Positions 51,987-63,858 of a DNA stretch of 64,000 bases are shown one piece after another. The notes beneath the pieces are model-generated. The model was not told where the DNA came from, did not search any database, and saw only the letters and a program-made list of their open reading frames with translations. How positions within the stretch are numbered: the first letter of the stretch is position 1; each line of letters opens with the position of its first letter. The stretch lies in contig JAFGEF010000038.1 of assembly GCA_016931715.1 (NCBI GenBank), forward strand, positions 51,924-115,923, read 5' to 3'. The DNA is from Sedimentisphaerales bacterium. GTDB lineage: Bacteria; Planctomycetota; Phycisphaerae; Sedimentisphaerales; Anaerobacaceae. A program made the position numbers and the translations under genes.

Positions 51987-52239
51987 CTCAAACTCGAACA
52001 ATAAAAGTTCTGTTACCAACCGGATACTTTTGTATGGCTGTAAAACAGTTGTTGATAGCAGAATGGAAAGGAAATCGTATTTTCAGGCTCATTTATTCGT
52101 CCATATTGTTCCAACCGGATTTTATTTACATTTTGCTTGATATTCCCTGCAATCGATATAATATCAAGGTTATAAAAGCATATTTTATAGTAAGGGCATA
52201 ATGCCGGTTTTAACCGGCGGTAAAGAAAGGTGGATTGAT

Positions 52240-52533
52240 ATGGCCACGTATTTTATGTTTGGGAAATACTCATTCGAATCATTCAACAAAATGGGTGCCG
52301 AAAGAACAGACGAAGCAGTCAGTCTTCTTTATAAATTTGGCGGTCAGGTAAGTTCGATGTACACACTGCTTGGAGAGCAGGACATAGTTCTTATTGTTGA
52401 TTTTCCCGATTTAGACCATGTAATGAAAGCCTCTATTGCTTTGACTAAAATGACAGGTATCTCATTTAAGACTTCTCCTGCCATAGCTGTAGAAGATTTT
52501 GATAAATTAATAACCGGGAGATTACACCTATAA
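52240..52533 (+). CDS. GYD-domain protein
   Basis: MATYFMFGKYSFESFNKMGAERTDEAVSLLYKFGGQVSSMYTLLGEQDIVLIVDFPD. Confidence 0.82.
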   Translation: MATYFMFGKYSFESFNKMGAERTDEAVSLLYKFGGQVSSMYTLLGEQDIVLIVDFPDLDHVMKASIALTKMTGISFKTSPAIAVEDFDKLITGRLHL

Positions 52534-52564
52534 ACAGCACAAAGTAAAAAAATATAATCTCTAT

Positions 52565-52584
52565 AACTTCAATTTTGCAGAATC
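52565..52584. repeat. Left 20-bp inverted repeat arm of the 52.6-57.6 kb segment (solo MITE-like end)
   Basis: AACTTCAATTTTGCAGAATC; exact reverse complement at 57533-57552. Confidence 0.85.
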
Positions 52585-52788
52585 CTTTGCAATTTTAGAT
52601 AATTCGTGACAAGACTTGTACCTCGTACATTGAAACCATTCAATGAATTTTCGATCCTCGTAAATGATTGATGTTAAAAAAACTTAGGTAATGGGCATCT
52701 TCAAAAAATGGGGAGGGAATGACTCTTCTGGTTGTAGTACGACTTTCACTCATAAAATCAGATGATATTTATGGCTTACATTCCCATT

Positions 52789-57351: not shown

Positions 57352-57530
57352 AATACCTGCTCCTTAAATTCAAAGATAATATGTCAACCACAAGATAATG
57401 AAACAGATGTTGTTTGATTATTATAATCTTGGTTAGTAACTACGGCAATATAGAAAAATGTTTAGCCTGAAATAGTTTATTGAAACCATTCAATGAATTT
57501 CCGAGCTTCCCGTTATGTTGATATTTTTGA

Positions 57531-57727
57531 AAGATTCTGCAAAATTGAAGTTAGGCATATATTGTATAAAGAAAATCTGTTTAAAAGATTTTCTTTATAC
57601 AATCTGGCGCATTGCTGTAACTGCTTATTCATGAGTAATTTAACTTCATTGTTTAAGAAAGAAAAAATTAAACACAGGCAATTTTTTCTTTCTTAAAGTA
57701 TGTCTAACTTCAATTTTGCAGAACTCA
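57531..57727. mobile_element. MITE-like element 1: 25-bp TIRs, two internal 18-bp hairpins, 13-bp direct-repeat flanks
   Basis: TTCTGCAAAATTGAAGTTAGGCATA (57535-57559) vs TATGTCTAACTTCAATTTTGCAGAA (57699-57723), 24/25; hairpins 57561-57603 and 57652-57697; TTGATATTTTTGA at 57518-57530 and 57728-57740. Confidence 0.8.
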
Positions 57728-57955
57728 TTGATATTTTTGATTTAAAGAGGTCGGTTATGAAGTTTTTTAAGGGACACGAAATTTTTAAATTACAGGTTTT
57801 GCTGTGACTTATTCATCCGCAGGCGGCTGCCTGAGCAAGCTTTCTTCTTGATAGTTCGAGGTCATTTTTGTAAAATTACTGATGTTTTATGCATTAGCAT
57901 AGATTTACGTAAGTTTTTGAAACTGTAGTTGACATACTTTGATAAGAGGAAGAAA

Positions 57956-63710: not shown

Positions 63711-63858
63711 TTACTTAGCCTTTGTGCCCAAGATACTGCTTAATTGAAGTCAGGCGCACTTTAAGAAAAAGGTTTTCAATCGTTCATAATAATTAAAAAT
63801 AGCAGTTTTCCGCTCCGTGAGCAAGTAAATATTGATGGATAAATCACCCCGCCAGAAG

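Follow-up and report, generated by a model that had tools for sequence, protein, structure and literature searches.

A dispersed non-coding MITE-type element of Sedimentisphaerales and relatives, with an AT-rich target just before AGGAG

Introduction

What is the strongly folded stretch between positions 57518 and 57740 of a 64,000-nucleotide window of a Sedimentisphaerales genome, and how did it come to lie there? Working from the letters of the window (the whole stretch of DNA that was analysed), the original prediction read it as a MITE-like insertion with terminal inverted repeats (TIRs), two internal hairpins and a target-site duplication (TSD). Here we conclude, with a good deal of confidence, that it is a single copy of a MITE-type element, non-autonomous and some 165-190 bp long, which would be moved in trans by a transposase. 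The family is dispersed, it duplicates about 9-15 bp of target, and one of its members has a matching empty site in a relative. Insertion is anchored to the DNA, namely to some 12 bp of AT-rich sequence, which become the duplication, followed 2-6 bp further on by AGGAG or GGAGG. The terminal stem, hairpin 1 and hairpin 2 keep their pairing through two-sided changes, and the interior has probably been inverted repeatedly between the TIRs. The original prediction did not include the target motif, the asymmetric tips or the repeated inversion of the interior.

Results and discussion

Anatomy of the window copy

The features of the window copy are as follows.

57518-57530, no strand: left copy of the 13-bp target-site duplication, TTGATATTTTTGA (exact repeat; family-wide TSDs)
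57531-57534, no strand: unpaired element tip AAGA, family consensus AAGGA (tip comparison across copies)
57535-57559, plus strand: left TIR (sequence; 133 genomic sites at up to 3 mismatches, control 1)
57561-57603, plus strand: hairpin 1, 18-bp stem ATTGTATAAAGAAAATCT/AGATTTTCTTTATACAAT with a 7-nt loop (sequence, folding, covariation)
57604-57651, plus strand: poorly conserved central spacer; some copies of about 225 bp have a TGTCATTGCGAGGAGCGCAGCGAC... palindromic repeat instead (copy comparison)
57652-57697, plus strand: hairpin 2, 18-bp stem TTTAAGAAAGAAAAAATT/AATTTTTTCTTTCTTAAA with a 10-nt loop (sequence, folding, covariation)
57699-57723, minus strand: right TIR (sequence; genomic TIR search)
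57724-57727, no strand: element tip CTCA, family consensus CTCAT (ATGAG inverted), adjoining hairpin 2 (copy comparison)
57728-57740, no strand: right copy of the 13-bp target-site duplication (exact repeat; family-wide TSDs)
57744-57750, plus strand: target motif AAAGAGG, resembling a Shine-Dalgarno (SD) sequence, 20-27 nt outside the TIR edge (sequence; family-wide AGGAG/GGAGG peak at 16-23 nt)
57757-57807, plus strand: 16-codon ORF MKFFKGHEIFKLQVLL*, starting 33 nt from the TIR edge (sequence; start-codon spacing distribution)

From TIR edge to TIR edge (57535-57723) the element measures 189 bp, and it is 74% AT. The TIRs pair at 24 of 25 positions and all hairpin arms are perfect 18-mers (57561-57578/57586-57603 and 57652-57669/57680-57697), as had been predicted, and the coordinates given for the 13-mer were exact. 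Direct repeats do lie outside the TIRs, but they do not abut them as had been claimed: 4 nt intervene on each side (AAGA and CTCA), and we count these as element sequence because comparison of copies shows the consensus ends ATGAG-TTCTGC...GCAGAA-TCCTT. The folding energy of the window element has a z-score of -11.0 as single-stranded DNA and -12.5 as RNA relative to dinucleotide shuffles, 0 of 200 of which were as low. The sole overlapping ORF (57493-57696, 67 aa) has its start codon outside the element, which is without coding capacity of its own, as the original prediction held. The window copy, whose interior is inverted relative to the majority of copies, also fits the target rule described below, with AAAGAGG in place and a start codon, ATG, 33 nt beyond the TIR edge; the short ORF that begins there, at the same spacing as in SD-adjacent copies, is probably a decayed gene start or leader.

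Copy number, distribution and tips

A search for other copies, proposed with the original prediction, found at least 40 near-full copies at 85-100% identity in the window's own genome (G000; 4.55 Mb, 173 contigs), a lower bound because 40 of 163 first-look candidates were scored. The 22-bp TIR core occurs there at 66 + 67 sites with up to 3 mismatches (133, vs 1 for a reversed-pattern control), which suggests roughly 65 or more copies, and many contig ends fall inside copies of the element. Across the GTDB family the distribution is patchy: the TIR pattern was present in 12 of 89 genomes and 9 of 45 genera, in very unequal copy numbers that are high in G000, G011, G009 and G015, and it was absent from both congeners of the window's genome (0/2), one of which has a weak partial match to the element. 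More distant copies are 70-77% identical to the window element, and the public records that contain copies are titled Sedimentisphaerales, Phycisphaerales, Phycisphaerae or Planctomycetota. Viral contigs searched by pattern gave four matches, none of them a family copy.

For the anatomy of the family we catalogued 95 copies with both TIRs from seven genomes. The 25-bp TIRs are conserved across species and lie 4-5 nt inside the true ends, the outermost 4-5 bases being unlike between the two ends. Copies in G000 read ATGAG-TTCTGCAAAATTGAAGTTAGRC ... GYCTAACTTCAATTTTGCAGAA-TCCTT; the right tip is GCCTT in G011 and G065, and the tips of G009 are TGAAC and CTCTT(G).

Target-site duplications and an empty site

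Direct repeats of 9-15 bp that score at least 9 lie outside the tips of 33 of the 95 catalogued copies and in none of the shuffled left/right pairings, which bears out the reading of the 13-mer as a target-site duplication. In most copies the clear duplication is gone (62/95 score below 9). A looser set of 42 copies, with lengths of 8-15 bp, includes 21 from G000, and the duplications are AT-rich (80% overall and 89% for these 21, vs 58% for the window).

An empty site, the second check that had been proposed, was found for another copy. Both flanks of L134 in G065 match contig C528 of its congener G064, where they overlap by 11 bp and enclose no element: the empty allele reads CCTGACAGTATGACACAAAGGAG, and the filled allele reads CCTAACAAAATGA-[element]-TGACAGAATGATATAAAGGAG. 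A single TGACAGTATGA in G064 thus stands against TAACAAAATGA-[element]-TGACAGAATGA in G065, just before the SD sequence AAGGAG, and it corresponds to the two flanking copies in G065, which have diverged since at two positions. The congeners of the window's genome are too diverged at the orthologous position, and no empty site for the window copy was found in them; in a second attempt elsewhere (L135), the downstream gene alone aligned. With other copies in the genome, family-wide duplications and the matching empty site in a relative, the MITE reading holds.

Targeting of AT-rich DNA before AGGAG

Throughout the family, AGGAG or GGAGG sits 16-23 nt outside one TIR end. Counts in 4-nt bins were 15 at 16-19 nt and 42 at 20-23 nt in G000 (57 in total), and 17 and 10 in six other genomes (27 in total), vs 0-3 in almost every other bin; these counts score overlapping AGGAG and GGAGG at one site separately, so the per-element figure is safer. 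By that figure, for the 92 copies having both flanks, an exact AGGAG lies at 14-24 nt on one side in 30, vs 1 of 92 in shifted windows (Fisher p = 2e-9). At the level of 4/5 matches the background is high (23-25/92), and 26 of the 92 copies have no such match. For copies whose duplication could be identified as well, 2-6 bp separate its inner end from AGGAG. The tip turned towards the motif is the ATGAG-type one in 24 of 31 G000 cases (read from the motif-scan output; binomial p = 0.003), and no such bias was seen in the other genomes.

The motif brings the copies close to gene starts. By a coarse gene call, a start codon lies no more than 40 nt from the TIR edge in 20 of 41 G000 copies, vs 15% of random intergenic positions, and none of the 41 lies within a predicted coding region; a direct scan found about 30 ends that have the start codon 28-36 nt away. 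This spacing had prompted the idea of translation-coupled targeting, which is weakened by the equal share of motif sites that have no gene start. For 30 motif-adjacent ends with enough flank, an ORF start follows the motif in 18 and none does in 12, and AT-rich non-coding occurrences of AGGAG/GGAGG in the rest of that DNA divide as 36 with and 24 without a gene start. Because the two ratios match, the DNA motif suffices for the SD association, and insertion looks to be targeted by the DNA motif, not by translation. Copies accumulate just upstream of ribosome-binding sites because AGGAG in AT-rich non-coding DNA is mostly an SD sequence. Such targeting would also limit damage, since the duplicated target copy beside the gene would leave its ribosome-binding site intact.

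Selection could in principle give a similar picture, if the element inserted anywhere in AT-rich DNA and survived only between promoter and ribosome-binding site. The AT-rich duplications and the lack of copies inside predicted coding regions agree with this, but because duplication restores the target, insertions slightly nearer to or farther from the SD sequence should be tolerated equally, whereas the distance to AGGAG varies by only a few bases and few copies lie at 24-60 nt. About 12 of the 30 motif-adjacent sites also lack a gene start after the motif, which equals the background share, and we regard selection instead of targeting as improbable. Among the open-access papers searched, we found none that describes insertion targeted to SD sites.

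Among the 12 sites without an ORF start, two (L074 and L075) resemble genes whose start codon is unusual or comes later: just outside the element there is a good ribosome-binding site and then an open frame whose natural start would be ATT, so that these are possible AUU start codons.

Covariation of the fold and inversion of the interior

Covariation was assessed in an alignment of 33 copies from seven genomes plus Phycisphaerae SM23_30, from which the outer part of hairpin 1 was excluded because the aligner misplaced it in G011-like copies. The 55 pairs in three helices are standard pairs in 90.8% of cells, a percentage that favours the window copy, from which the structure was derived; two-sided changes are the stronger measure, and they occur at 18 pairs vs 11.6 after shuffling. 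The covariation score was 0.159 vs 0.080 for shuffled alignments and 0.018-0.085 for slid controls. For example, GGCAT/ATGCC in the TIR stem is changed to GGCCT/AGGCC, and the AAAATC/GATTTT tip of hairpin 1 is AATCCCGA/TCGGGATT in G065. The terminal stem and both hairpins thus covary across species, and for the hairpins, template switching that corrects palindromes, rather than selection, could have produced part of the signal.

About one G000 copy in four, that of the window among them, carries its interior in the reverse orientation with respect to the tips. On the interior tree these copies are scattered, needing 7 changes where shuffled labels need about 7.3, so that the interior has probably been flipped between the TIRs on repeated occasions; the resolution of this tree is poor, and L084 was entered in it in the wrong orientation. 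The covarying stems and the recurrent inversions together suggest that what is maintained is the fold as well as the ends.

What moves the element

The original prediction had a transposase acting in trans and proposed a search for a full-length IS with the same TIR. Since none was found in the searched loci, where TIR pairs 0.24-6 kb apart proved to be enlarged, nested or neighbouring copies only, we infer rather than observe such a transposase. The autonomous partner may be missing from the draft assemblies, because multi-copy IS collapse in them.

In classical DDE elements the length of the target duplication is usually near-constant and the terminal bases match. Against this pattern, the duplications here vary between 9 and 15 bp, and the tips differ. 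The element ends look like those of the IS6 family. An IS6-family derivative was nevertheless rejected, as PF13610 had 0 matches in G000, G009, G011, G015, G065 and G067 and a match below the cut-off in G064, and so was an IS1595-family derivative, PF12762 occurring once in G000 and in none of the other high-copy carriers. Co-occurrence of IS1595, IS6 and Y1 transposases does not separate carriers from non-carriers for any of the three. An integron attC site, considered for its GTTAGRC/GYCTAAC resemblance, was rejected because the order is reversed, the copies are single and dispersed, and duplications are present.

The folded three-stem form, as extruded DNA or as a transcript, may be recognised by the machinery or may spare the host gene. 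In a stronger version, which we consider rather unlikely, what is transposed is this fold itself, whether as extruded or single-stranded DNA or as an RNA copy, and the machinery places it where some 9-15 bp of DNA just upstream of AGGAG have locally opened; this would account for the variable duplications and the damage-limiting placement.

One rival is that the element is a repeat of the REP/TIR type and that its mover is an IS200/IS605-like transposase (Y1, RAYT/TIRYT) reading the hairpins in single-stranded DNA; against it, Y1 transposition is generally understood as making no target duplications. The conserved and covarying hairpins would suit such an enzyme, Y1 transposases occur in G000 and most family genomes, and TIR repeat families linked to tyrosine transposases have been described (PMC3733652). 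However, Y1 genes are as common in genomes without the element (77 of 89 genomes have one), and no long-spaced TIR pair able to enclose a gene was seen; we give this explanation only a small chance.

That the element is a structured regulatory RNA (a leader) spread by recombination and kept for its function, the outside repeats being incidental, is very improbable: the strong, covarying secondary structure and the many copies just upstream of gene starts would fit, but the duplications and empty site, the patchy distribution, the structure-free deletion derivatives of 44-58 bp among the family copies, the varying orientation of the interior relative to the tips and the lack of any Rfam 15 match near a gathering threshold do not. 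The original prediction had named stems covarying at a fixed orthologous locus as the sign of such an RNA; the stems do covary, but between dispersed insertions and not at one locus.

Comparison with known repeats

Being short, non-coding and high-copy, with TIRs, target duplications and an empty site, the element is a bacterial MITE in the descriptive sense. By anatomy, YPAL/RU-2 of Yersinia would be its closest described counterpart, which is 168 bp long, intergenic and strongly folded, with inverted repeats internal to its true ends, target duplications of 3-26 bp and known empty and filled sites (PMC2229807). Compared by description, the planctomycete element shares the variable duplications (9-15 bp) and the TIRs internal to the tips. 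YPAL/RU-2 does not share the AT-rich composition (74% AT here), and its targets are sites that span or lie next to dyad symmetry (PMC2229807), whereas our element has an AT-rich target before AGGAG, a 25-bp inverted repeat and a planctomycete host; because base composition and target differ, we do not file the family under YPAL/RU-2.

Correia/NEMIS of Neisseria and RUP/BOX of pneumococcus are likewise non-autonomous, about 100-200 bp long, high-copy and mostly intergenic, with pairing inverted ends, and Correia and RUP have target duplications (PMC2229807, PMC3049150). Those two carry TA termini, and RUP inserts at TA and has a related IS630-type IS, whereas the planctomycete family has asymmetric tips, 9-15-bp duplications, an SD-like target motif and no known IS partner. 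With REP/REPIN and the TIR repeats of RAYT/TIRYT transposases (PMC3733652) it shares dispersed palindromes and hairpins that may be recognised in trans; unlike them, it duplicates its target, its long outer inverted repeats enclose two hairpins, and no linked tyrosine transposase was seen in the searched loci.

Small bacterial repeats are usually described as lying near genes, without a precise target, whereas here the target can be read as an AT-rich stretch before AGGAG. Such targeting would account for the ability of a high-copy parasite to occupy many gene leaders and leave the genes themselves unbroken, and the motif offers a testable handle on what moves such elements, a question that a review left to future work (PMC2229807).

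Size variants, solo ends and nested repeats

Outward promoter or terminator sites in the element showed no excess over shuffles. The family also includes one-ended copies; retroelement-like end truncation is unsupported, since these keep either end. Some copies, about 223-226 bp long, have a TGTCATTGCGAG palindromic repeat in place of the centre. This replacement is seen in L065, L067, L077, L078, L051 and L151, and L109 and L242 carry a different repeat, GTCATTCCTGCGAAAGCAGGAATCC; these central palindromic repeats are nested small repeats.

Elsewhere in the window, a solo family end, TAACTTCAATTTTGCAGAATCCTT, lies at 52561-52582 on the minus strand soon after a small ORF (52201-52533) and is a truncated copy, and a degenerate TIR-like sequence, TGCTTAATTGAAGTCAGGCGCACTTTAAGAAAAAG, at 63734-63755, upstream of a response-regulator gene, is probably a decayed family copy. 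The identical ATTGAAACCATTCAATGAATTT, which contains a palindrome, stands at 52629-52650 beside the truncated copy and at 57479-57500 beside the full one. In the one-ended L073 and L079, the hairpin arm TTAAGAAAG runs directly into the AAGGGAG/AAGGAG site of the gene, and part of the ribosome-binding region appears to be supplied by the element.
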